Below are positions 2,084 through 22,990 of a stretch of 55,690 bases of DNA, one piece after another. The stretch's first letter is position 1, and each line of letters begins with the position of its first letter. Made by a program: the position numbers and the translations under genes. The stretch lies in contig JABAAC010000141.1 in assembly GCA_014238965.1 (NCBI GenBank), positions 1 to 55,690 on the forward strand, read 5' to 3'. The notes under the pieces are model-generated. The model made no database searches. It saw only the letters and a list, made by a program, of their open reading frames with translations, and was not told the DNA's origin. This DNA is from Phycisphaerales bacterium. GTDB lineage: Bacteria > Planctomycetota > Phycisphaerae > Phycisphaerales > SM1A02.

Positions 2084-3994
2084 TTAATCGACATCGTCGA
2101 CGCGCCCAGACCACTCTGCTTCAAGTGGTGAAAGCTCCGCTTGCAGACGTTCAATGGTCAACGCAATAGCGGCCATGGCATCAGCATCGGACCAGTTCGC
2201 CTCCAACTCCATAGAAGCCTGCACTTGGCCAAGCTCCAACTCAATGCGCTCAATTCGCGCCTCGAGGTCCTTCTGAGACAGTCGCTCCAGCGGCGATTTG
2301 CGTCGCTTGGCTGGCGCAACTCTTGGCCCGCCTGCTGCCTCGTCTAACTGGGTTGATTGAACCGAGCCACCGCCTCGAAGCCATCCTTCTACATCATCAA
2401 CCGCATGCAGTTCCCCAGCACGATCAATCACTACCAATCGTGTGCAAGCAGCTTGGAGCAAAGCTCTGTCATGACTCACAAGTAAAAGCGTTCCTGGCCA
2501 GGTGCCCTTGGCATCCAAGACCGCTTCAACACGTTCTGCAGAGGGAATGTCTAGGTGGTTGGTGGGTTCATCTAGGACAAGCATGTTGCACCCGCGGCCG
2601 AGCAGCCCAGCAAACACCGCCCGGGCCCGCTCACCCCCAGACAGCGATGCCATTTCCCGATCCTGCATGCCACCGGAAAACAAAAAAGCCCCCGCGAGAT
2701 TTCGGGCAGACTGCTCCGATACAGGCCCGCCAGTGCCCTCTTCAAGCGATCGGCGCACATGAAGCCAAACGGCTGCTTCTGGGTCAACGTCGGTTCGATC
2801 TTGACGAAACCAGCCTGTTCGAAGCCCTGCGCCTGTCTGCACAGTGCCCGCTGCTGGCTCAAGCTCGCCAAGCAGTGTCCGTAGTAGCGTCGTCTTGCCA
2901 ATGCCATTGGGGCCCACGATGCCAATATGCTCACCACGTCGAACCTCTAGATCTATGGGCCCAATCAAGGTTGTGCCGTCAATGCCAATCTCTAAATCAG
3001 TGGCTTCGATCACAAGGTCACCGCTGCGTGGTGGCGTGGGCAAGTCAAAGGCGGCCACCGCTTCATCCGTAGGAACATCCACCTCATTAGCTTCAACGAA
3101 TCGCTCTAATCGCGAAGCTCGCCCACGAGCCTGCTTCGCCCGCTGGCCGGCCTTGTACTTGCGAATGTAGGCTTCTTCCCGACGAACATGCGAAGCGAGT
3201 TTCTCCGCGGACCGGGCCGCAGTGATCGCCCGCATTGCACGCTGAGCTCGCCACTCGTCCCACCCACCCTCGGAGACAAGCAGGCCTCCGTCATGCACTT
3301 CTGCAACACGTGAGCAGACAGCCTGCAACAGCCATCGATCATGCGTGACCAAAATGACCGCCCCGCTGAATGCATCGGCCAAAAATGTCTCCAGCCAACG
3401 CCGCGCCTCCAAATCGAGATGATTCGTTGGTTCGTCCAGCAGTAAGACGTCAGGGGTTTCAAGCAGCACACGGCAAAGTTCCAATCTGGCCCGCTCGCCC
3501 CCTGAGAGCGTTGCAACCGCTCGTGTGCGATCGAGGTCCGCCAACTTGACGCCCTCAAGGACGGCGTCCACACGGTGGGCCACGTCCCAGCCGCCACGAG
3601 TTTCCAGCGCACTTTCCAGCCGAGCCTGTTCTGCAAGCAGGCCCTCAAGCTCGTTTGGCGAAGCCGAGCCCATGGCATCAAAGACTGCCTGCAGCGCCGA
3701 CTCGATGGCTTGTGACTCCGCCCGTGCAGAATCCAGTAACGCCTCCACCGTCTGTCCGGGAATCTGTTGGGGCTCTTGGTGCAAGCGGCTTATTCGAAGG
3801 CCACGGCGGCGAATAATGCTGCCCGCGTCTGGCTCGAGCGTCCCATCAATGAGCCGAAGGAGCGTTGACTTCCCCGCGCCGTTGCGACCGACCACGGCCA
3901 TTCGGTCACTCGCCCCGATGACAAGGGACGTGTCCTCAAGGATGGCGGTTGTGCCCCGGCGGAAACTCACTTCGGTGCATGTGATGATGGACAT
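2084..3994 (-). CDS. ABC-F family ATPase (Uup-like)
   Basis: Soluble ABC-F protein with two nucleotide-binding domains on one chain and no membrane segments. The first domain has Walker A GRNGAGKST, signature LSGGERARLELCR and Walker B LLLDEPTNHLD. The second has GPNGIGKTT, LSGGERARAVFAG and MLVLDEPTNHLD. Between them lies the arginine- and lysine-rich linker (KYKAGQRAKQARGRASRLER) that contacts the ribosome in this family. The C-terminal roughly 80 residues form a charged coiled coil like the Uup C-terminal domain. At 636 residues the length is normal for Uup. ABC-F proteins act on translating ribosomes or, for Uup, on branched DNA or ribosome assembly; the precise role here is not shown by sequence. 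Divergent from the HIT gene with only 29 nt between starts, so their promoters must overlap coding DNA. Confidence 0.9.
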   Translation of the reverse strand: MSIITCTEVSFRRGTTAILEDTSLVIGASDRMAVVGRNGAGKSTLLRLIDGTLEPDAGSIIRRRGLRISRLHQEPQQIPGQTVEALLDSARAESQAIESALQAVFDAMGSASPNELEGLLAEQARLESALETRGGWDVAHRVDAVLEGVKLADLDRTRAVATLSGGERARLELCRVLLETPDVLLLDEPTNHLDLEARRWLETFLADAFSGAVILVTHDRWLLQAVCSRVAEVHDGGLLVSEGGWDEWRAQRAMRAITAARSAEKLASHVRREEAYIRKYKAGQRAKQARGRASRLERFVEANEVDVPTDEAVAAFDLPTPPRSGDLVIEATDLEIGIDGTTLIGPIDLEVRRGEHIGIVGPNGIGKTTLLRTLLGELEPAAGTVQTGAGLRTGWFRQDRTDVDPEAAVWLHVRRSLEEGTGGPVSEQSARNLAGAFLFSGGMQDREMASLSGGERARAVFAGLLGRGCNMLVLDEPTNHLDIPSAERVEAVLDAKGTWPGTLLLVSHDRALLQAACTRLVVIDRAGELHAVDDVEGWLRGGGSVQSTQLDEAAGGPRVAPAKRRKSPLERLSQKDLEARIERIELELGQVQASMELEANWSDADAMAAIALTIERLQAELSPLEAEWSGRVDDVD

Positions 3995-8921: not shown

Positions 8922-10637
8922 TTGATTCGACTTGGAATCACCCTGACGTTGCTTGTCTTTTGGAGCATTCAAACGGTGATGGCCGAAGCGCCAGCCCCCG
9001 AGGCTGCCGTTGATGCATGGACGAGCGTGCGAGCATGGGTAGACGAAGGCCTCATACCAGGTCATGGTCGAACAACGCCTCCAGGCGTCGATGGCGCCGC
9101 GGTCCAACTCTTCTGGCGGGGTCGATTGGTTGGCGCGGATGAAGCCCATGCTGCTGCTGGCGATGTCGACCCGCTGGCAAAGGCCGCCAGAGGCGCACTG
9201 CTGAAGGCATTGGCAGACCGCCACATTGCAGCCTTGCCTGAAGCAGAACGAGTTGAGGCGCTGTCTGGCCTGCACTTAGAGGTCGAGGTATCAGGCATTC
9301 CTGAACCACTGACGGGCCCCCTCAGTGTGCTGCATACGGATATCCACCCTGCACTCGATGGCCTGGCTGTCCGTCGCAACGACCGCTGGGCGATGCGATT
9401 TCCCTCGCGGCTTCGTGCGCGAGGTCGCGCCTCCACTCTGGAAACGCTCCGCGGAATGCTGCTCATGCTCGACGTGCACGAAGCCCAAGCTGATGCACTT
9501 CGACGCACTGGTGAGGTAACCATTTATCGACTGCCCACCACGGATCTGCGTGAAGCTAAAGAAGGTCGATTCCCTGAACACTTCGAGCGTGGTCGATCTG
9601 GATCACTTGCGCCACTTGATGCAAGTGAATCTGTTATTGCATTGGGCGATCGATTGGCTGTTGCACTGCTCAGCTGGTATCTGGAACTCACGCCAGATGG
9701 TGCTGAACCAACGGCGTTCTTTGCCGGTACATGGGACCCAAATCGAGACACGTGGACGGAGTTGATCGCAACCGACAGTGACATTGCACTGGCATCGCTC
9801 GCCCTTGCCCGTTGGGCATCAGAGCGGCCCGATCATGCACGCGCTGCCCGAGCCATGAACCTCGCACGAATAGGCATTCGCCATGTACTTCACGCAGCCG
9901 AGCCTAACCCCCGGGCCGTTGCCCTGGCCATGGTGGCCGCAGCAGTTGCGTGGCCTGAGACAGCGATGCCCACCGCAGTCCAAAAGCCCTTGCTGCAAAT
10001 GCTGGTCCAAGAATCCGCCGATGGCGGCGAAGAGCCAACTCGAGCTATTGCAACCCTGGCAATGGCTCTCGGTGGTGATACCGACCGCTCAACTGCGTCA
10101 ATCGACACATGGCTCGAATATGGCCCTGACGCAATCGCACAGACCATGCCATGGTCAATGGCGACCGCGAGAGCCCTTGGCGACACACGATTGGACGCGC
10201 AATTCGACTTGCTCCGCGAAATTCTGCTGCGTCGACAACTCGATGCCAGCGGCGGCCCTTGGGGACCAGAGGCCGCCGGCGCTGTGGCCCTGCAACGAAC
10301 CCCCGCTGCAATGGGTGTGGCAAGCCTTCGCGCGGCATGGGCCTTGGCCGCAGCAGTAGCCGATGTACCCCCTGCTGAGCGTGTGTTATTGCGGGAACGG
10401 ATGTTGATGCTGGCAACCCACCTGCAAAGGCGTACTATCGATGCAGACACCGCCCAAGCATGGCCCAGACCCGATCACGCTGTTGATCGCATCCGCTTGG
10501 CACCCTGGGACGAACGGTTGTCAATATCGGCCCAAGCCCTTGCGCTGCTCGCTGCGTTGGATATCACTGAAGCATTGACGCCGGCAGAGGCATCAACGCT
10601 AGCCCCGACCCCCGTACCACAGGAGGCGCCCACATGA
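8922..10637 (+). CDS. Secreted helical-repeat protein with AMMECR1-like N-terminal region
   Basis: A 571-residue protein with a signal peptide (IRLGITLTLLVFWSIQTVMA). It starts at a TTG with GGAGGG nine bases upstream. Residues about 50-190 follow the outline of the AMMECR1 fold: a 'VQLFWRGRLVG' strand, the helix 'DPLAKAARGALLKALAD', then 'LHLEVEVSGIPEPL' and 'LDGLAVRRNDRWAM.FPS'. The resemblance is by eye only, and the usual LRGCIG motif is absent. The C-terminal roughly 350 residues are alanine-rich helical pairs resembling an alpha/alpha toroid (for example 'SDIALASLALARWA', 'GGPWGPEAAGAVAL'). The stop overlaps the next ATG by 4 nt, so the two products are probably made together. Function unknown. 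Confidence 0.7.
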   Translation: MIRLGITLTLLVFWSIQTVMAEAPAPEAAVDAWTSVRAWVDEGLIPGHGRTTPPGVDGAAVQLFWRGRLVGADEAHAAAGDVDPLAKAARGALLKALADRHIAALPEAERVEALSGLHLEVEVSGIPEPLTGPLSVLHTDIHPALDGLAVRRNDRWAMRFPSRLRARGRASTLETLRGMLLMLDVHEAQADALRRTGEVTIYRLPTTDLREAKEGRFPEHFERGRSGSLAPLDASESVIALGDRLAVALLSWYLELTPDGAEPTAFFAGTWDPNRDTWTELIATDSDIALASLALARWASERPDHARAARAMNLARIGIRHVLHAAEPNPRAVALAMVAAAVAWPETAMPTAVQKPLLQMLVQESADGGEEPTRAIATLAMALGGDTDRSTASIDTWLEYGPDAIAQTMPWSMATARALGDTRLDAQFDLLREILLRRQLDASGGPWGPEAAGAVALQRTPAAMGVASLRAAWALAAAVADVPPAERVLLRERMLMLATHLQRRTIDADTAQAWPRPDHAVDRIRLAPWDERLSISAQALALLAALDITEALTPAEASTLAPTPVPQEAPT

Positions 10638-11584
10638 CACCCATTCGAACACACTTGGGCATTGCCGCAATACCCCTCGTCATTGCAATTGGTTGCACGA
10701 TGCCTGTGACAGTGCACGCCGGACCAACACTCACAGATGCGTGGAATCAGATTCAAGCTCGCAAAGGCGCCGCGTCGGTGCACATCGGCGTATCGGCGCG
10801 AATTCTTCAGCGGCTGATGTACACCGATCTGGACATTGGCTTCACCGATATCACAGTGCGCCGAGCACTGAGTGAAATTTCAGATCTCGCAAACGTCAAA
10901 CTCAAACCTCTGTACCTATCGACGTCCATGGCCGATGGAATCGACCCAGAACAACGCATCACCCTTCCGGAATCCAAGCGACCAGCGCTCGACATCATCG
11001 AATCAATCATCGAGCAAATTGAAGTGAGCGGCGTGCCCACAACATGGCAACTGCGTCATGGCTCGTTTGAGATTTCAACGAAGGCAAGGCTCGGCACGCG
11101 TTCGCAACAAGTCCTTGTGACCTATCCAGTGCTTGACCTCATTGAAGAAGTCCCCGACTACAACAACCCGCCGAATCTCAACCTTGGAGGTGGTGCAGGG
11201 GGTAGCGGCGGTGGTGCTGGTGGTGGTACAGGCGGTGGCGGCTTCGGTGGTAGCGGCGGTAGTGGCGGCGGCGGAGCAGGTGGCGGTGGCGGCGGAGCAG
11301 GTGGTGGTGGCGTACCCGATGATCTTGGTGGCCGGTCGCTCGATGAACGCCTTGCCGAACTGATCGACCTCATCACGACTTTCGTCGAGCCCGACGCATG
11401 GGTGCGTAATGGTGGTCAGTTTGCTGAGATTCGCCCTTGGCGGCGGACACTTGTTGTTCGGGCTCCACGATGGGTGCACAGACAACTTGGTGGCTTTGAT
11501 ATTCCCCCAGCACCCGCTGGTCGAACCCCACGATCACTGAGTCTTGAAGGCTCTGCAGTTCAGGTCATTGTGCCGACCCTCTAG
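10634..11584 (+). CDS. Secretin-N0/STN-like exported protein with polyglycine linker
   Basis: A 316-residue exported protein. Its signal sequence ends either at a possible lipobox (AIGC) or at 'VHA'. Residues about 55-150 carry the pattern of the secretin and TonB short N-terminal (N0/STN) domain: 'DIGFTDITVRRALSEISDLANVKLKPLY', then a helix and 'WQLRHGSFEIST'. This runs into 'VLVTYPVLDLIEE'. A 42-residue glycine tract follows, then a second small domain ('AELIDLITTFVEPDAW...GGQFAEIRPWRRTLVVRAP') that resembles a secretin N1-like module. No secretin barrel is present. It overlaps the upstream gene by 4 nt. Possibly a periplasmic or outer-membrane partner of a secretin-type machine; this is inference from fold resemblance. 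Confidence 0.65.
   Translation: MTPIRTHLGIAAIPLVIAIGCTMPVTVHAGPTLTDAWNQIQARKGAASVHIGVSARILQRLMYTDLDIGFTDITVRRALSEISDLANVKLKPLYLSTSMADGIDPEQRITLPESKRPALDIIESIIEQIEVSGVPTTWQLRHGSFEISTKARLGTRSQQVLVTYPVLDLIEEVPDYNNPPNLNLGGGAGGSGGGAGGGTGGGGFGGSGGSGGGGAGGGGGGAGGGGVPDDLGGRSLDERLAELIDLITTFVEPDAWVRNGGQFAEIRPWRRTLVVRAPRWVHRQLGGFDIPPAPAGRTPRSLSLEGSAVQVIVPTL
11186..11311 (+). repeat. Glycine-codon tract (GGN repeats)
   Basis: A 126-nt low-complexity tract of GGT/GGC/GGA codons with interspersed Ala and Ser, encoding a flexible linker of about 42 residues between the two domains of the STN-like protein. Codon choice varies, so it is not a pure microsatellite. Confidence 0.85.
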
Positions 11585-15053: not shown

Positions 15054-15383
15054 TTACTTAGGCTTTGACCAGTCCCAGTCAGTTGATTTGTGCAGCGCAC
15101 CCGCTGCTTGTTTGATGCAACGACGACAAATGTGAGCTTCAGTCTGCGTGCCATGCCAAGCGTACTCGTCGCGCACTTCAAGACACATGGTGCACGGTTC
15201 AGAGGACCCTGCGCCCCCTTGGGCTAATGCTGCAAAAGCGAGCGTGAGGCAACCACCACAAATAATGCTTCCATGGTGGCCCTCAACACATGGTGCGTCA
15301 TCTGCCCATGCCGCCTTATGGCAAAAATCGCACAGCACATCCTCGGGCTGAACATCGTCTGGATTCGTTCCTTCACGACGCAT
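15054..15383 (-). CDS. Small cysteine-rich zinc-binding protein
   Basis: A 109-residue protein with four CxxC pairs: CDFC near residue 18, CGGC near 42, CTMC near 65 and CRRC near 86. A likely two-zinc arrangement follows, resembling a tandem ClpX-type C4 zinc finger ('LCDFCHKAAWADDAPCVEGHHG' read in parts, then 'ICGGCL'). It is the last gene of the minus-strand operon, 3 nt after trmB, and convergent with the histidine kinase (6 nt between stops). The role is unknown; tight linkage to trmB and rsfS hints at a housekeeping function. Confidence 0.75.
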   Translation of the reverse strand: MRREGTNPDDVQPEDVLCDFCHKAAWADDAPCVEGHHGSIICGGCLTLAFAALAQGGAGSSEPCTMCLEVRDEYAWHGTQTEAHICRRCIKQAAGALHKSTDWDWSKPK

Positions 15384-15386
15384 TGC

Positions 15387-16043
15387 TTACGGGCCCCGCT
15401 TCAAGGTCATGGCGTTGAATGGACGGCCTTGACGACGATACTTACGCTCAAAATTAGTCCCAACCACTTCACCGTCTCCAGCGCTTGGCGGAGGTGTAAA
15501 TTCACTACGCACAAACAGATGTTCCGCCCGAGCGACATGCTCTTCGCACCAGGTCCAAAGATCCTGGTGATCCGTCACGATGTGAAGTAGCCCACCAGTC
15601 TTCAGGATTCGATGAAACTGCTTCAGTGACTCGTCTTGCACAACACGACGTTTGTGGTGGCGGGCCTTGGGCCATGGATCACTGAAGTACAGGTGCACGA
15701 TATTGCAAATCCCATCGGGCAGCCGATGTGTGATGAACTGCACCGCATCGTCGTGCAACATTCGAACATTTGAGCATTGGTTTCGGCGCAAGCGATCAGC
15801 GGCATATCGATAGAACTCCCCCGTCCATTCGATACCTAGGAAATTTGTGTCTGGTTGCAGGTTTGACTGCTGCACAAGAAATGTGCCTTTGCCCGAACCA
15901 ATCTCGAGTTCAAACGAATGCTCCGGATTGGCGAACCAATCTCGCGGATCAAGGTGGCCTTGATCAAACGATGGAAGATCTTCACGATCAAAGCCAATGC
16001 CCGTCGTATCGAGCACTTTGCCACGTGACAATCCGAAACTCAT
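15387..16043 (-). CDS. trmB: tRNA (guanine-N7)-methyltransferase
   Basis: SAM-dependent enzyme that forms m7G at position 46 of tRNA. Visible features: the SAM-binding motif 'ELEIGSGKGTFLV', the acidic motif 'FLGIEWTGEFYRYAA', and the family signature 'HLYFSDPWPKARHHKRR' holding the catalytic Asp and tRNA-binding basic residues. The C-terminal 'TNFERKYRRQGRP' is also typical. At 218 residues it is of normal length. The ATG overlaps the stop of the upstream PQQ-like gene by 4 nt, so translation is probably coupled. Confidence 0.95.
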   Translation of the reverse strand: MSFGLSRGKVLDTTGIGFDREDLPSFDQGHLDPRDWFANPEHSFELEIGSGKGTFLVQQSNLQPDTNFLGIEWTGEFYRYAADRLRRNQCSNVRMLHDDAVQFITHRLPDGICNIVHLYFSDPWPKARHHKRRVVQDESLKQFHRILKTGGLLHIVTDHQDLWTWCEEHVARAEHLFVRSEFTPPPSAGDGEVVGTNFERKYRRQGRPFNAMTLKRGP

Positions 16044-16378
16044 GACGCAGCTGCCGCAGCAGCAGCAGCTGCCGCCGCGGCGGATGCCTGAAGATTGACC
16101 TGACTGTTTGGATTCGTCGCGGAGACCAGCGACGCCACACCGGTTCCCATGCCCTTCAGTGGGTTATGCCACAACTCTGCGCCAGTCACGAGGTCAAGTG
16201 CCCACATGTACCCACCGATACTCACAATCAACATATCTCGCTCCACCATAAGCGTGGTGTAGGAGCCGCCTTTTAACTTGGGCTTCCACGTCCAACAGAT
16301 ATCCCCCGTCTGACGATCCATCGCCACAACACGTTTGTTAAAGCCAACGTAGATGAGATTCTCAAGCCAAACCGTCAT
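16040..16378 (-). CDS. PQQ-like beta-propeller mini protein with polyalanine tail
   Basis: A 112-residue protein with about two WD/PQQ-type beta-propeller blades: 'LIYVGFNKRVVAMDRQTGDICWTW' (read in parts) and 'MLIVSIGGYMWALDLVTGAELWH'. Full PQQ propellers have seven or eight blades, so this is a fragment or a protein that assembles from several copies. It ends in an extraordinary run of about 13 alanines and a serine. No signal peptide is seen. It overlaps both neighbours by 4 nt (ATGA), which argues that it is a real, translated gene. Function unknown. Confidence 0.75.
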   Translation of the reverse strand: MTVWLENLIYVGFNKRVVAMDRQTGDICWTWKPKLKGGSYTTLMVERDMLIVSIGGYMWALDLVTGAELWHNPLKGMGTGVASLVSATNPNSQVNLQASAAAAAAAAAAAAS

Positions 16379-18123
16379 TGTGTAAGCCCTACCTGTGTTC
16401 GAATCCAGTTGGTGATGATCGCCATCGCCGCTGGATCAAAGGTCGTCTCAATGCGAGGGTACTCATCTAACGTGCCCTTCGTCGCCGGTTGGAAAAGGTG
16501 ATTCAGTCCTTCGAGGCGATGAATCGTGACGTCCCCCCCGCCACTCTGGACGGCCTGCTTAATGGCCGGGAGGTTCTGATCGACGGGCACCTGCAGGTCA
16601 AGTGCGCCGTTGAGCGCAAGCACCGGGCATCTCACCTTGGCCAAGTGCTCAGCTGGGTCAAGATCGAGAAACGCCCGCATCCAAGCGCTTGAGAGTTGCG
16701 CCATAGCTGTATCGACCGTGTCGTCATCCACCGTCATGTCGGCCGTTGCATCCGCCATGACCATCTGTGCCTCAATCAGCCCCCTGATCAGTGCTCTGAT
16801 CTCTTCGTCTGGCGCATCGCTGACAACCGCATCAAGTACCGCACCTTGCCGCTTCGTGACCTCAGCCACTTGCTCCGGCGACTCGCCAGCAGCCAGGAGC
16901 ATTGCTTCGACCTGCGCTGACAGTATGTCGCCACCGGGCACACCTGGCCCCGCGAGCAACACAATAAAGTGCACAGCGTCTTGCCTCTTGGCTGCCACGA
17001 TTGGCGCGATCAAACCTCCTTCGCTGTGTCCCATGAGGCCAATGTGTGTCGGATCAATGTCGCCTCGTGTGCGCAGGTGATCGACCAAGAGTTCAACATC
17101 ACCTGCGTAATCGAGCGATGTGTCATCGGACAGTGTCGCATTGCCCGGGTGCGACTCGCCAACGCCGCGATCGTCGTAGCGAAGCACCGCAATGCCGTGG
17201 CGAGACAGATGATCGGCGAGCACCCAAAATGGTTTGTGCCCGAACAGCGTCTCATCGCGATCCTGCGAGCCGGAACCGGAAATCAGCACCACGGCTGGGT
17301 GCGGCCCGCTGCCCTGAGGAATGGTCAATGTCCCTGCGAGCGTGTGCCCTTCGGGATGTCGCACACGAATGCTGTCTTCCGTATAAGGGAACGGTGGCTT
17401 TGGCGTTTGCGGCCGTTGCATTGTGGACGTGGCCGACGTCGGTTTCAGATTCACATCCAATTTGACCGAAGCCTGCGTGAACGTACACGTCAGGCCGCTT
17501 GGTGTTTCCGTGACAATCAATTCCGCCGGCGTCGGGGCGTCGAGCACGAGCGTGTGCTGCACACCATCCGATGCCGTCATCCGCAGCGGTGTGGCGTCAA
17601 CCAGTTGTAGTGGAATGTCAATTTCAGCCTGCAACGCGCCGTCCACTTCGGCAAGCCGGATCGTGATGTCCAACTCCATGCCAGGCAGATCAAGTGACCC
17701 ACCAAAGGCGCGAACACCCTCGATTGATCCTAGGGGCGGCATCCACTGAAGCGTGCCCTTGGCGGGCCCAAGCGGGCCGATCTTCATCATCTCAATGGTG
17801 TACGACTTGCCCGCTTCGCCGCTACCCATGACGGCAATCTGTTGCCCGCCAATATGCCCGGTCCAGAATTGGCTGTTATGTTCCAGTGTCGTCGCTGGCA
17901 AATTCCACGGTAACGATGCAATGGTTGCCTTCTGTTGCTCTGTGTCGATAGAAAACACCACAAAGGCCGCATCGAGTTGGGGCGGATCAACCATGCCACC
18001 CCATCGCAAGATGTCTGCACCCGTAGGCAACGCAATCGACCACGTCAGTGCGATCGCTCCACACAAGCGAGGCACATTCAAGGTGTGTCGGATGCTGTTG
18101 GCGCTTGGGGTGGTGCTGACCAT
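16375..18123 (-). CDS. Secreted alpha/beta hydrolase (active triad present)
   Basis: A 582-residue exported serine hydrolase. A signal peptide-like segment (RLCGAIALTWSIALPTGA) is followed by about 230 residues of beta-rich sequence. The alpha/beta-hydrolase domain then starts at 'HPAVVLISGSGSQDRDET', the oxyanion region. The nucleophile elbow is GHSEGG with Ser367. The acid lies in 'LALNGALDLQVP' and the catalytic His in 'EGLNHLFQ'. The domain resembles dienelactone-hydrolase/prolyl-oligopeptidase-like esterases. It overlaps the paralogous gene upstream by 46 nt and the PQQ-like gene downstream by 4 nt. The substrate is unknown; an ester or peptide is likely. Confidence 0.85.
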   Translation of the reverse strand: MVSTTPSANSIRHTLNVPRLCGAIALTWSIALPTGADILRWGGMVDPPQLDAAFVVFSIDTEQQKATIASLPWNLPATTLEHNSQFWTGHIGGQQIAVMGSGEAGKSYTIEMMKIGPLGPAKGTLQWMPPLGSIEGVRAFGGSLDLPGMELDITIRLAEVDGALQAEIDIPLQLVDATPLRMTASDGVQHTLVLDAPTPAELIVTETPSGLTCTFTQASVKLDVNLKPTSATSTMQRPQTPKPPFPYTEDSIRVRHPEGHTLAGTLTIPQGSGPHPAVVLISGSGSQDRDETLFGHKPFWVLADHLSRHGIAVLRYDDRGVGESHPGNATLSDDTSLDYAGDVELLVDHLRTRGDIDPTHIGLMGHSEGGLIAPIVAAKRQDAVHFIVLLAGPGVPGGDILSAQVEAMLLAAGESPEQVAEVTKRQGAVLDAVVSDAPDEEIRALIRGLIEAQMVMADATADMTVDDDTVDTAMAQLSSAWMRAFLDLDPAEHLAKVRCPVLALNGALDLQVPVDQNLPAIKQAVQSGGGDVTIHRLEGLNHLFQPATKGTLDEYPRIETTFDPAAMAIITNWIRTQVGLTQ

Positions 18124-19769
18124 GCTTCGATGATAGTGAGCACGTCAGGCAGGAAGGTGCGACGGACGCTCGTTGGTGACCGACCAGATTCAGGTACTGG
18201 CCGAAGTTTGCTATTTGCACGGTCTACAACGTGCATTTCAGCAGTGCCACCGAGCGACTCAATAGATTCCTGCGCCGTATCGGCATGCAAGGGAGCATCC
18301 AGGATGTCATCCGACAGGCCCCAAATCCCCAACAACGGTGCCTGGATCCGCGGTAGATACCGCCGAGGTTCCATGACCAGTAATTGGATGCGGCCCGGCA
18401 GCAAGATGCGCCCAACAGCAGCGTCAATGGCGGCATCAGATGGCCTTTGGCCTCCGGTCGTAACCGCCATGAGCGACAACCATTGGGCAGCAGACTCACG
18501 AAGAGCGCCTTCATGCATGCCTCTGGACGCTCGATGAACAAAGTCCAATCGCGCACGCATCACACCAGCGGCTGCTTCGGCATCAATACCACGATCAACC
18601 ATGAACCTGCGGGCATGGTCAGCTTCAATAACAGCAAGTGGAAAGGCAGGACATGACAGCAAGATGACACCTTGAATGTCATCGCCCAATCGAGCAGCCG
18701 CCACCGCAGCAGTCAGTGCTCCATCTGCTAGACCCGCAACAATGACCTCGCTGAACCGATCATCCTCGAGCAGTTGCTCAGTCAAACCAGAAACCTGAAG
18801 CGACCACAGTTTGGTCGTGAGCGGTCCATTGATTGAAGGCCATGAGTCACTGTCACCCGCGCCAGGCGCATCGAACCGAATCGATGCGACACCGATGCGT
18901 GCTAAGCGATCTGCAAGTACGAGCAGTGGCCGATGTCCGTCCTCTGTCCCATCGCGGTCTTGCCCACGGCCAGTGATCAGCACAACCAACGGTGGCTTGC
19001 CAAGGCTCATGCCCGCCTGCGGCAGCACAAGCGTGCCGGCGACTTCTGTCTCGATGCGCAATGGCATACGAACCTGCTGGGAAGTCCAAGGCACTTCGCC
19101 CACAGGTTCTTGCGGTCGAAGAGGCAAAGACTCCAAATCTCGCCGAAGTGTGATTGGCACCATTGCATCGCCGCGCGTCACCATGCCCTCAGCTTGCTTG
19201 CCTACAGGCTTGGCAAGCACTGTGGTGGGCTGGTCTGTGGGCAAGGTAAACTCGAGCGTTCCGTCATCGTGTTGATGAAAGGTAACTGGAAAGTCACGAA
19301 GCGATATTGCAGGCATATCCACACGGGCCAATCCTGATCCACCTACATGCAAGATGATCGGTGCAACATCACCCGACGCGATGGGAAGGTCCCCCGCCCA
19401 GGCCGTTGGGTTTGTCAGGGGCTCAATTGGCTCAAGCACTGCGCTCAGTCCCTGATCGGTGGCGATGTGCAATTGACCATCGTCGCCCGAATTGATGCTG
19501 TAGATCTTGCCGCCAAGGTCTAGAGGCAGATGCAGTTGCGTCCTGTCATCGTCAACCACCACTTCCGGCAGCGGAGCCTGCACCAACCCGCCTGAGAGTG
19601 ACGTCAGCCACGCGACCGTATCGCCATCAACCTGCTCGAATGTCAAGACGAACACGTTTCCTGCATTTGTGTGTTGAGCAACCACGTCATCAACAGGGGG
19701 CATGTGCGCGACGTATCGCCCCTGCAAGCCAGTGGCGAAGGCCACGGACAGGATCACAGACGTAATCAC
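18078..19769 (-). CDS. Alpha/beta hydrolase paralogue, probable pseudoenzyme
   Basis: A 563-residue paralogue of the next gene with the same architecture: signal peptide (ITSVILSVAFATGLQG), beta-rich N-terminal region, and a hydrolase fold from 'KPPLVVLITGRGQDRDGTEDGHRPLLVLADRL' (read in parts), which aligns with the neighbour's oxyanion region. At the nucleophile elbow it reads G-L-A-D-G (Ala348) instead of G-H-S-E-G. The C-terminal His motif (GLNHLF) is replaced by 'DRANSKLRPV'. It therefore lacks two triad residues and is probably not a hydrolase. Its length is intact and its frame clean, so it is not a decayed gene. It is coupled to rsfS by a 4-nt overlap. A binding or regulatory partner of the active paralogue is plausible. 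Confidence 0.8.
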   Translation of the reverse strand: MITSVILSVAFATGLQGRYVAHMPPVDDVVAQHTNAGNVFVLTFEQVDGDTVAWLTSLSGGLVQAPLPEVVVDDDRTQLHLPLDLGGKIYSINSGDDGQLHIATDQGLSAVLEPIEPLTNPTAWAGDLPIASGDVAPIILHVGGSGLARVDMPAISLRDFPVTFHQHDDGTLEFTLPTDQPTTVLAKPVGKQAEGMVTRGDAMVPITLRRDLESLPLRPQEPVGEVPWTSQQVRMPLRIETEVAGTLVLPQAGMSLGKPPLVVLITGRGQDRDGTEDGHRPLLVLADRLARIGVASIRFDAPGAGDSDSWPSINGPLTTKLWSLQVSGLTEQLLEDDRFSEVIVAGLADGALTAAVAAARLGDDIQGVILLSCPAFPLAVIEADHARRFMVDRGIDAEAAAGVMRARLDFVHRASRGMHEGALRESAAQWLSLMAVTTGGQRPSDAAIDAAVGRILLPGRIQLLVMEPRRYLPRIQAPLLGIWGLSDDILDAPLHADTAQESIESLGGTAEMHVVDRANSKLRPVPESGRSPTSVRRTFLPDVLTIIEAWSAPPQAPTASDTP

Positions 19770-20137
19770 AGTGGCGAGTCCCGTGGACCGTCAAACTCAA
19801 TCAGCGGCGCATCAGACCAAAGCTCTTCCAAATCGTAATACGCCCGACGTGATGGTTCAAAAAGGTGTGCAACCATGGAGACGAAGTCTACGACGGTCCA
19901 CGTCGTGGCGTCATCACGATTCGATCGATACGGTGGGAAACCTCGCTCAGTACCGAGGTCCTCTAACTCCGCTGCAACGCTTTTGGCCTGTCGATCACTT
20001 GTACCTGAGGCAACCAGCACAAAGTCACACACCTGGCTCAGGCCTCTCACATCAAGCAGCCGAACGTCCTCACAGTGCCGGTCAATCGCCAAACGGCCGG
20101 ACTCGACGGCGAATGCAAGTGCATCGTCATCAAGCAT
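19766..20137 (-). CDS. rsfS: Ribosomal silencing factor
   Basis: A 123-residue RsfS-family protein, which binds uL14 on the 50S subunit and blocks subunit joining under nutrient limitation. The family pattern is clear: 'RLLDVRGLSQVCDFVLVASGTSDRQAKSVAAEL' (read in parts), then 'DATTWTVVDFVSMVAHLFEPSRRAYYDLEELWSDAP' (likewise), with the strongly conserved 'Y.LE.LW.DA'. The frame extends to 20236, but that would overlap hppA by 74 nt, so the ATG at 20137 is preferred. It lies 25 nt after hppA and overlaps the downstream gene by 4 nt. Confidence 0.93.
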   Translation of the reverse strand: MLDDDALAFAVESGRLAIDRHCEDVRLLDVRGLSQVCDFVLVASGTSDRQAKSVAAELEDLGTERGFPPYRSNRDDATTWTVVDFVSMVAHLFEPSRRAYYDLEELWSDAPLIEFDGPRDSPL

Positions 20138-20162
20138 TCGTTGCGCAGATTGCGCCGCTTGT

Positions 20163-22868
20163 TCAGCCAAGGCCGACCGCGGCCTGGATAGTTGGACCAA
20201 AGTGGACAACCAAGCCTGCAAACACAACTGAGACAATTGCGATCAACTTGATCAGAATATTCAGCGATGGGCCAGAAGTGTCTTTGAACGGATCGCCAAC
20301 AGTGTCGCCTGTGACCGAAGCCTTGTGAGCATCGGACCCCTTGCCACCATGTTGGCCAGATTCAATGTACTTCTTAGCGTTGTCCCAAGCACCACCGGCG
20401 TTGGCCATGTAGATAGCGAGGGCGAACCCACTAGTCAAACCACCAACCAGCAGTCCCATGACACCACCGACACCGAGAATCAGGCCCACCACGATGGGTG
20501 TGAAGATCGCCAGCAACGATGGGATGACCATCTCACGCTGTGCACCGGTCGTCGAAATGGACACACACTCTTGATAATCGGGATATTCAACACCGTCAAT
20601 AGTGACACGGGTTGGCCACTTCATTGGATCTGAAACATCCTCTTCGCTCATACCATCCTTCTTAAACTTGTCTCGCATCAGACCAAACTGGCGGCGACAC
20701 TCGTTCATCATTCGGTATGCGGCACGACCAACGGCATTCATCGTCATCGCACAGAACACGAAGGCGAGCATGACACCCAGGAACAGCCCGCCAATGACGC
20801 GAGGATTCATGATGGAGATGTTGTAGAAGGCACCAAGATGCTGCAACGTCGCTTTTGATGCAGGAACGAGATTGAAGGAGATATCTGTATCACCCGCTGG
20901 GGCGACAACGTCCCACTCTCCAGCGAGAGTGTCCCAATTTGCAGTTGCGGTGAAGTGCTTGCCGATGGGCCAATTTTGGCCAATCGCAGTGGCAACCGCA
21001 CTTGAGGACAAGAGCAACGCTCCGCCGCGAGCGACAGTTCCCTTCGAGCCGGCATCACTGTTGGGCATGTTTGCGACCATACGGAACTCGCCATGGCCGT
21101 CGTTGACCAAGTGGAGCGTGTGGGCTCCATGAGCACCGTTGATGTCAGTGACGTCTTTGAACGAAACCGCATCTGATGTATCTAGATCGCTTCCTGTTCC
21201 AGCGACGATGGCCGCGGCTGCAACATCGTCAACGTGCAACTTGTCGATCATCGAGCCCTTGACGACAATGGCATACGCTGCCAGCAGCGCCATAGCAGTC
21301 AGCGCTGCAGAACCAATTGCAAAGCCTTTGCCGGTTGCGGCAGTCGTGTTTCCGAGTGAATCGAGCATGTCGGTCCGCTCTCGCACGAAAGACGGCTGTC
21401 CGGTCATTTCAGCATTGCCGCCAGCGTTGTCGGCGATCGGTCCATACGCATCAGTTGCAAGCGTGATCCCAAGGGTCGACAGCATGCCAACAGCAGCAAT
21501 GCCAACGCCATACAAACCAAGCAAGAAGTTGTCGTTGCCACCGCTAATCCCGAAAGCGATCAGAATCGCAGCAACAATGACGACGAGCGGCGCCCACGTG
21601 GACTTCATGCCTTCGGCAATGCCTGCGATGATTACAGTTGCGTGGCCAGTTTGCGTTTGCTCTGCGATGCGCTGGGTTGGCGCGTGCTCGTACGAGGTGT
21701 AGTACTCAGTCGCGAACGCAATGATCAGGCCAGCAGCCAAACCAGTGACAATTGCGAGCCATGGTTGCCACCAAGCCAAGACTACGGCGTCGCCCACCAT
21801 GCCATCGCCAAGTAGAATGTAGAAGAGCACGCCAGCACCAGCGGTCACGAGTGCCGATGCAACCCACACACCCATGTGCAAGCCCTTGAGCAATTGACTG
21901 AACGACGCGCCTTCCTTGGCTCGCACCACGAAGATGCCGAGCAATGAACAGACGATGCCAATGCCTGCCAGTGCCATTGGGGCTGCTGCAAGCTTGAAGG
22001 CCCACTCAACGTTGTTGCCTGCCAAGGCGACGGTACTGAATGCTGCAGTTGCACCAATGGCCATCGAGGCGAGAATAGAACCGTAGTACGACTCGTAGAG
22101 ATCCGCGCCCATGCCAGCGACGTCGCCGACGTTGTCACCAACGTTGTCGGCGATAGCAGCTGGGTTGCGCGGATCATCTTCGGGAATTCCGGCCTCGATC
22201 TTGCCGACAAGGTCCGCACCGACATCCGCTGCCTTTGTGTAAATGCCACCACCGACACGTGCGAACAATGCCTGAGTGGAAGCGCCCATACCGTAGGTGA
22301 GCATGATCGCGGTGATCATTTCCAGCGTCATGGATGAGCCAAGCATGCTCTCGCCAAAGGCATTCCAGATCAGGAACCAGGCACTTGCATCCAGCAGCGC
22401 GAAGCCCACGACAACCAAGCCCATGACCGCACCGGAGCGAAAGGCGACGGTGAGACCATCGTTAAGCGACTGCTTAGCGGCGAAGGTCGTTCGAGCCGAG
22501 GCGTTCGTCGCCATCTTCATGCCGAACCAACCACATAGACCCGAGAACAGGCCGGCAATGGGCACACCCACTGCGGTCCAAATGGGCTGAATGCCCAACG
22601 CGCCAAGGCCAATCAGAATGGACACAAGCACGATGAAGACAATGAACACAACCTTGTATTGCCGCACTAGGTACGCCATGGCACCTTCACGCACCGCTTC
22701 AGCGATGCGGATCATTTCCGGCTCACCTTCACTCTTGCTCATCACGCTGCGGCTGAACAAGAATGCGGACACCAGTGCAAGCACGGCCCCGATGGGAGCA
22801 ATGAACCACGGCCAAGCGTGCTCAATAATGTTGTTGACACCGCTGGTGGCGAGAAGATTGAGAATCAT
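20163..22868 (-). CDS. hppA: Membrane-bound K+-dependent ion-translocating pyrophosphatase with inserted domain
   Basis: Ion-pumping PPase (about 16 helices) that couples PPi hydrolysis to H+ or Na+ export. The catalytic core is intact: 'GGGIYTKAADVGADLVGK', 'DDPRNPAAIADNVGDNVGD' and 'DAYGPIADNAGGNAEM'. In 'GNTTAATGKG' the Ala and Gly at the two K+-determining positions indicate the K+-dependent class. The H+ or Na+ choice cannot be settled by eye. The protein is about 901 residues, well above the usual 670-770. The excess is a roughly 140-residue non-membrane segment (about residues 540-680 of this start) between 'LLAAYAIVVKG' and 'FYNISIMNPRVIGG'. The ATG at 22868 has AGGAG nine bases upstream. 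It follows rpsU by 122 nt and precedes rsfS by 25 nt. Confidence 0.93.
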   Translation of the reverse strand: MILNLLATSGVNNIIEHAWPWFIAPIGAVLALVSAFLFSRSVMSKSEGEPEMIRIAEAVREGAMAYLVRQYKVVFIVFIVLVSILIGLGALGIQPIWTAVGVPIAGLFSGLCGWFGMKMATNASARTTFAAKQSLNDGLTVAFRSGAVMGLVVVGFALLDASAWFLIWNAFGESMLGSSMTLEMITAIMLTYGMGASTQALFARVGGGIYTKAADVGADLVGKIEAGIPEDDPRNPAAIADNVGDNVGDVAGMGADLYESYYGSILASMAIGATAAFSTVALAGNNVEWAFKLAAAPMALAGIGIVCSLLGIFVVRAKEGASFSQLLKGLHMGVWVASALVTAGAGVLFYILLGDGMVGDAVVLAWWQPWLAIVTGLAAGLIIAFATEYYTSYEHAPTQRIAEQTQTGHATVIIAGIAEGMKSTWAPLVVIVAAILIAFGISGGNDNFLLGLYGVGIAAVGMLSTLGITLATDAYGPIADNAGGNAEMTGQPSFVRERTDMLDSLGNTTAATGKGFAIGSAALTAMALLAAYAIVVKGSMIDKLHVDDVAAAAIVAGTGSDLDTSDAVSFKDVTDINGAHGAHTLHLVNDGHGEFRMVANMPNSDAGSKGTVARGGALLLSSSAVATAIGQNWPIGKHFTATANWDTLAGEWDVVAPAGDTDISFNLVPASKATLQHLGAFYNISIMNPRVIGGLFLGVMLAFVFCAMTMNAVGRAAYRMMNECRRQFGLMRDKFKKDGMSEEDVSDPMKWPTRVTIDGVEYPDYQECVSISTTGAQREMVIPSLLAIFTPIVVGLILGVGGVMGLLVGGLTSGFALAIYMANAGGAWDNAKKYIESGQHGGKGSDAHKASVTGDTVGDPFKDTSGPSLNILIKLIAIVSVVFAGLVVHFGPTIQAAVGLG

Positions 22869-22990
22869 GGTCCTGTCTCCTAAAGAGAAGATCTGGAACG
22901 ACACACACGCCGCCCAGATTGGTTGCTTGGATCAGTTGCTGATGAACTTGGGGAGCAAACCACAGCGTGTGGCACACTCACACAAGAAAA

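Follow-up and report, generated by a model that had tools for sequence, protein, structure and literature searches.

The best-known pseudo-alpha/beta-hydrolases, i.e. proteins that keep the alpha/beta-hydrolase fold without its chemistry, are eukaryotic. Passages of two papers describe neuroligins and NDRG proteins in these terms: they share the fold, have lost the catalytic triad and have non-enzymatic roles (PMC5943944, PMC7022630). Passages of a third describe pseudoenzymes that regulate an active relative, which occur in several families (PMC10211241). Among the papers listed in open-licence PMC, none dealt with the locus described here or with bacterial pseudo-hydrolases of this protein family. 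The window analysed in this work is the whole 55,690-nucleotide stretch of contig JABAAC010000141.1, from a Phycisphaerales bacterium of the GTDB family SM1A02 (assembly GCA_014238965.1). On its minus strand, directly after rsfS, lie two hydrolase genes, the upstream of which has lost the catalytic serine. We call a protein of this family dead if it has no Ser at the nucleophile column, and active if the alignment shows Ser, Asp and His (S-D-H) at the triad columns, in which case activity is predicted. Our overall reading, to which we assign a probability of roughly 0.6, is that the upstream gene encodes an old, kept, stand-alone pseudo-hydrolase seated directly after rsfS.

The two proteins of the window are identical at 129 of 480 aligned positions (27%; BLASTP, E 3e-28), and the two open reading frames (ORFs) are full-length paralogues. 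AlphaFold2 models, with a mean predicted local distance difference test score of 85.8 for the upstream and 88.6 for the downstream protein, place both in the alpha/beta-hydrolase fold (central sheet, helices, and a nucleophile elbow after strand 5) and add to each, ahead of the hydrolase domain, some 200-230 N-terminal residues of all-beta structure. An earlier, sequence-only reading of this DNA had described two genes of shared architecture, the downstream one with Ser367 and a His motif and the upstream one with Ala348 and no His motif yet of full length and intact frame, and each of these points was borne out. In an alignment of 34 sequences (both window proteins and 32 relatives) the downstream triad is S367/D509/H542, with the His in the context LNHLF. 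The same columns of the upstream protein hold Ala348 (in GLADG), Asp487 and, where the downstream protein has its His, a Ser (ANSKL vs LNHLF), i.e. the Ser nucleophile of the G-x-S-x-G motif and the catalytic His are absent and the catalytic acid, of which the earlier reading made no mention, is present. The upstream model puts residue 348 at the nucleophile elbow, where strand 342-347 gives way to helix 349-364. The upstream gene product is therefore predicted to be a non-hydrolytic (pseudo) alpha/beta-hydrolase. No column of Ser, Thr, Cys or His was conserved in at least 14 of the 15 dead-clade members (G011, see below, excluded), and the alignment gives no sign of a shared nucleophile that has migrated within the clade. 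Within the genus of the window genome alone several Ser and two His are kept in the dead proteins, in a comparison of three species only.

The C-terminal domain of both proteins shares its fold with the feruloyl esterase/monoacylglycerol-lipase type (Hydrolase_4, PF12146; PDB entries 7wwh, 7z2u and 7q4j). The best Foldseek matches of the downstream model, whose protein has the S-D-H triad, fall in this feruloyl esterase/lipase group, and the upstream model aligns with the feruloyl esterase 7wwh_A over 242 residues (Z 26.6, root-mean-square deviation 3.3). Unlike that group, both window proteins carry the all-beta N-terminal region, and the upstream one has neither nucleophile nor His. The downstream protein exceeds several Pfam cut-offs (Hydrolase_4, 50.7 bits vs a cut-off of 27), whereas the upstream protein stays under the Hydrolase_4 cut-off at 22.7 bits. 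In NCBIfam the downstream protein scores highest against EstD (NF041096; strongest over residues 248-420), but at 119 bits vs a cut-off of 600 it falls outside that family, as does the upstream protein at 17.7 bits. EstDZ2, presented in passages of PMC5171882 as a new esterase family, was set aside as not this family.

We used profile searches over 181 genomes of the bacterial family to determine how widespread the lost serine is. A match was obtained in 137 genomes, 111 of which were read (the remaining 26 are nine of genus g53, six of g60, eight partial matches, and G013, G029 and G127). With nine genomes from other families of the order the census covers 120 genomes and 135 proteins, or 134 readable proteins after removal of a fragment from G035 in which the triad region is absent. 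S-D-H was found in 118 of the 134, and the 16 Ser-less proteins belong to four genera: three in g1 (the genus of the window genome, G000, with G001 and G002 as the other two genomes examined), one in g10 (G011), six in g35 and six in g61. The serine column of these 16 holds Gly in eight, Asp in seven and Ala in one. All 16 dead ORFs are long and stop-free, and 15 are complete, that of G166 being cut by a contig edge. In the three g1 species the serine column reads Ala, Gly and Asp, and the His column Ser, Gly and His. Because the two sister species are also Ser-less, with different residues, the loss in the window is not a matter of chance; a single-strain change, which the sequence-only reading had named as a refutation, is ruled out by the Ser loss in all three g1 species and in g10, g35 and g61. 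Neuroligins and NDRG proteins belong to other subfamilies, whereas here a bacterial lineage at one locus retains the acid in 15 of 16 proteins and the His in 13; the dead lineage is a new lineage of a known kind of protein.

Two further searches looked beyond the census. As an outside control we took the best 80 loci of a scan across many phyla, with search patterns that called for the His motif or one of GHKP type and not for the Ser. These loci gave 84 ORFs of the protein family, i.e. 81 with S-D-H, the dead gene of G001, and two without an aligned triad that were set aside. A profile built from 11 dead proteins was run over 400 genomes of the order. Its eleven top matches were all dead genes already known, ten of which had gone into the profile, with the last at 6.8e-193; an active copy came next at 4.5e-111, and the weaker dead proteins G169 (9.6e-94) and G011 (6.1e-67) scored amid active ones. 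Among the loci that this profile returned there were no further dead relatives beyond the four genera, which means no new close member and does not amount to absence.

The dead genes evolve under constraint. The ratio of nonsynonymous to synonymous substitution rates (dN/dS) was computed for six dead pairs, one of which was saturated; the other five gave 0.27 (dS 0.18), 0.14 (dS 1.5), 0.18 (dS 2.0), 0.20 (dS 2.1) and 0.30 (dS 2.0), and active pairs gave 0.13-0.20. With ratios well under 1, and with 16 such proteins across four genera, we consider it very probable that the upstream lineage is a pseudoenzyme kept by selection.

The position of the dead genes is also constant, as 14 of the 16 frames open on the same strand no more than 22 bases from rsfS, and trmB lies downstream of all 16. 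The exceptions are G166, at its contig edge, and G011 (L203, 2952-4988, plus strand), which lies 584 bases after rsfS and in which Asp has replaced Ser (GHDEGG) while His and acid are retained. The sequence-only reading had found the rsfS/trmB setting unexpected for exported enzymes, but it proved to be common in the family: within the stretches read, rsfS precedes 74 of the 118 S-D-H copies on the same strand, across 22 genera, with a gap of up to about 700 bases in some and with the S-D-H copy as the second gene in G000 and G001, and trmB comes next in most of the 22 genera. Of the remaining S-D-H copies, one lies ahead of rsfS, and for 43 the stretch contains no rsfS, in part owing to contig ends. 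The special feature of the upstream gene is the loss of serine, not the linkage to rsfS and trmB. Two variants of the locus were seen in passing: in G082 (g53; L214, 2098-5363) rsfS is flanked on both sides by S-D-H hydrolases, and in G036 (g35; L215, about 2758-3791) the hydrolase is gone from the locus and rsfS is followed directly by trmB.

We compared a quick, unrooted gene tree of 77 proteins with a tree of rsfS+trmB from 51 genomes. In the gene tree the dead copies of g1 and g35 group together (support 99) and are joined by those of g61 (99), with G011 apart from these. The rsfS+trmB tree groups g61, g1 and g35 (95/92) and, within them, g1 and g35 (92/84), followed by g5+g8 and g19, i.e. 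the branching (g61,(g1,g35)) is the same in both trees. The active g1 copy clusters with those of g5, g8 and g19, as vertical descent predicts. This agreement of the two trees suggests a single old loss, before g1, g35 and g61 diverged, that was inherited in place, which we consider likely. The ancestral gene at the site would have encoded a serine hydrolase of feruloyl-esterase/lipase-like type, probably exported and with the all-beta region at its N-terminus. One copy of this gene would have lost its nucleophile in the common ancestor of the three genera and been seated directly after rsfS ever since. For G011 a second, separate loss in g10 would be the simplest reading; support for it comes from the rsfS+trmB tree, where g10 falls among genera with S-D-H at the locus (96/85), because the gene tree puts all 16 dead proteins on one side of a branch. 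A within-genus tandem duplication as the source of the g1 pair was rejected: an approximately unbiased (AU) test against the dead and active g1 copies as one clade gave p 2e-9 (23 of 77 rows), with the caveats of long branches and of a test chosen after earlier trees had been seen.

Codon usage is compatible with a stepwise change at the nucleophile. The active Ser is encoded by AGC or AGT in 100 of the 102 copies longer than 450 aa, and the dead genes have GGN, GAY or GCA at this column. A single step thus separates Gly from Ser, and another separates Gly from either Asp or Ala. The simplest path would run from AGY (Ser) to GGY (Gly) and later to GAY (Asp) or GCN (Ala).

Several observations weigh against our overall reading or parts of it. 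Dead proteins of different genera are 18-29% identical, no more than they are to active ones, and their grouping may reflect long-branch attraction, a bias that the AU test shares. In the gene tree the branch that has all 16 dead proteins on one side, G011 included, has an SH-like approximate likelihood-ratio test support of 94, and within g1 the trees conflict, with the dead genes joining G000 to G001 and rsfS+trmB joining G000 to G002. Four of the five dead-pair dN/dS ratios rest on a dS of about 1.5 or more, and g35 is looser, its dead pairs giving 0.27 and 0.30 vs 0.16 and 0.15 for the active copies of the same genomes. R469 and R474 are near-invariant in the dead clade, yet they occur in 30 and 34 of the 118 active copies. 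The retained His (13/16) and acid (15/16) could mean residual or altered chemistry. As to export, the dead proteins of G000, G001 and G002 begin with a hydrophobic stretch that lacks a basic n-region. Several g61 dead proteins and G011 have N-termini that resemble classical signal peptides by sequence inspection, and from its hydrophobic N-terminus the upstream protein is probably exported.

Some of these observations are what would be expected if Ser had been lost separately in g1, g35 and g61 (and in G011), each time in the rsfS-linked copy, with the dead proteins joined in the tree by long-branch attraction. The residues differ (Ala, Gly or Asp in g1, Gly in g35, Asp or Gly in g61), identity between the genera is low and the branches are long. 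Against separate losses stand the branching that matches the rsfS+trmB tree, the shared genomic site and the AU result, and we regard such losses as a possible but unlikely history.

The sequence-only reading had also pointed out that active/pseudoenzyme pairs often form a complex in which the dead copy regulates or binds substrate; here the dead copy would bind the adjacent active enzyme and regulate it or present substrate to it. Pseudoenzyme/enzyme heterodimers are known in other families, according to passages of PMC10211241, and in G000 the two genes run in one direction and overlap, while in G001 they are adjacent, in the same gene order. These are, however, the only two of the 16 genomes with the tandem pair. 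In G002 the order hppA-rsfS-dead-PQQ-trmB runs along one unbroken contig with no active copy beside the dead gene, and with the active protein as query the dead gene was the sole match in that genome at E up to 1e-10. In six genomes (five of the six of g35, and G178) the active copy is on another contig, and in eight of the 16, several of them incomplete, no S-D-H copy is present in the census, although a weaker relative of G011 was matched outside it. Conserved co-occurrence, as expected of an active/pseudoenzyme heterodimer, was thus not found; the adjacency seen in the window is not a conserved pair, and an obligate complex is not supported. Because dead and active copies do not travel together a stand-alone reading is favoured, and we give the binding of the adjacent enzyme only a small chance. 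In one comparison of the two copies, between G165 and G170 (L098/L099 and L176/L185), the dead copies are 91% identical (dS 0.18) and the active copies 74% (dS 1.1), a mismatch that may point to one copy having been transferred, replaced or mis-binned.

Haloalkane dehalogenases and epoxide hydrolases are alpha/beta-hydrolases with an Asp nucleophile. The letters of their triad (Asp nucleophile, Asp, His) are found at the triad columns of seven dead-lineage proteins, among which the window protein is not included. In g61, Asp, acid and His are present in five of six species (43-70% identity), and the sixth, G176, has Gly at the serine column and has also lost the His. This pattern could mean that Asp replaced Ser as the working nucleophile in g61, in G002 and perhaps separately in G011, with the window protein as a dead side branch. 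The Asp-nucleophile reading of g61 is drawn from the triad letters: the 15 listed PDB matches of one g61 protein were esterases, lipases, an MHETase and dipeptidyl peptidases, with no dehalogenase or epoxide hydrolase among them, and none was among the listed fold matches of the upstream model, results that exclude nothing. Against a switch, g35 has Gly at the serine column yet keeps its His, so retention of the His needs no catalysis, and the window protein has neither an Asp nucleophile nor the His. The elbow position may also favour Gly or Asp for backbone reasons. We therefore think a switch improbable, and the odds look equally poor for its fuller version, in which a Ser hydrolase would have passed through a dead Gly state to be rebuilt as an Asp-Asp-His hydrolase in g61, its sisters staying dead (Gly, Ala) and a second Ser-to-Asp change arising in G011.

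A decaying, functionless gene whose frame is merely still unbroken is disfavoured as improbable, since the faster evolution of g35 (long branches of G169 and G171, dN/dS 0.27-0.30), the loss of the gene in G036, where rsfS directly precedes trmB, and the lack of an active copy in G002 are set against dN/dS of 0.14-0.30 in five pairs, long stop-free ORFs in 16 of 16 (15 complete) and retention across three genera.

Returning to an old, kept, stand-alone pseudo-hydrolase, the dead protein would have remained under purifying selection with its fold and its acid Asp retained, an intact copy adjoining it in two of the three g1 species and the dead gene elsewhere being kept without one beside it. 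Such a protein may act alone outside the cytoplasm in a binding or scaffolding capacity, holding either the ester-type ligand hydrolysed by its active relatives or a partner at the surface; we put forward this stand-alone binding role tentatively. The system is of wider use, as one bacterial family offers Ser, Gly, Ala and Asp variants of the nucleophile position at one locus, in genomes where the active copy is in tandem, on another contig or not found. This makes two questions directly testable, i.e. what selection preserves an esterase fold that has no nucleophile left, and whether hydrolases of the Ser and Asp types can interconvert via a dead intermediate. It also corrects the tempting reading of an active/dead adjacency that was seen in 2 of 16 genomes.

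The minus-strand gene order in the window is hppA, rsfS, upstream hydrolase, downstream hydrolase, PQQ mini-protein, trmB (Table 1). Neighbouring reading frames of the hydrolase locus overlap in G000, which suggests that the genes could be read as a single transcript. The listed ATG of the downstream hydrolase reaches 46 bases into the upstream gene, and an in-frame TTG at 18079-18081 overlaps the upstream stop codon (TTGA). We consider this TTG the likelier start, because the resulting N-terminus is more signal-peptide-like, and the start that gives 582 aa doubtful.

Table 1. Features of the hydrolase locus, in positions of the window
Feature	Coordinates	Strand	Remarks
Pseudo-alpha/beta-hydrolase (predicted), 563 aa, GTG start	18078..19769	-	Hydrophobic N-terminus; all-beta N-terminal region; C-terminal alpha/beta-hydrolase domain ~228-555; Ala348, Asp487, Ser at His column
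Ala348 codon GCA in nucleophile elbow G-L-A-D-G	18726..18728	-	Counted from the 19769 start, checked against the sequence
Intact paralogue, 582 aa from listed ATG, esterase-type alpha/beta-hydrolase	16375..18123	-	S367-D509-H542
rsfS	19766..20236	-	PF02410; stop overlaps pseudo-hydrolase GTG start by 4 bases; usual upstream neighbour of the protein family
One-blade PQQ/BamB-like mini-protein, 112 aa, poly-Ala tail	16040..16378	-	Between hydrolase and trmB
trmB	15387..16043	-	PF02390; downstream edge of the conserved locus
hppA membrane pyrophosphatase	20163..22904	-	PF03030; upstream of rsfS

The PQQ/BamB-like protein consists of a single blade and is far too short for a lone propeller; related blade proteins occur at this locus in g5, g9, g19 and g25, ahead of the hydrolase in g9. 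After trmB a small minus-strand protein (15054-15383) gave weak matches to the ClpX-type C4 zinc finger that stay under the curated cut-off, and similar ORFs are found in the corresponding place in G001 and G002. Elsewhere in the window, a 316-aa ORF on the plus strand (10634-11584) starts much like a signal peptide and includes a long stretch rich in glycine.

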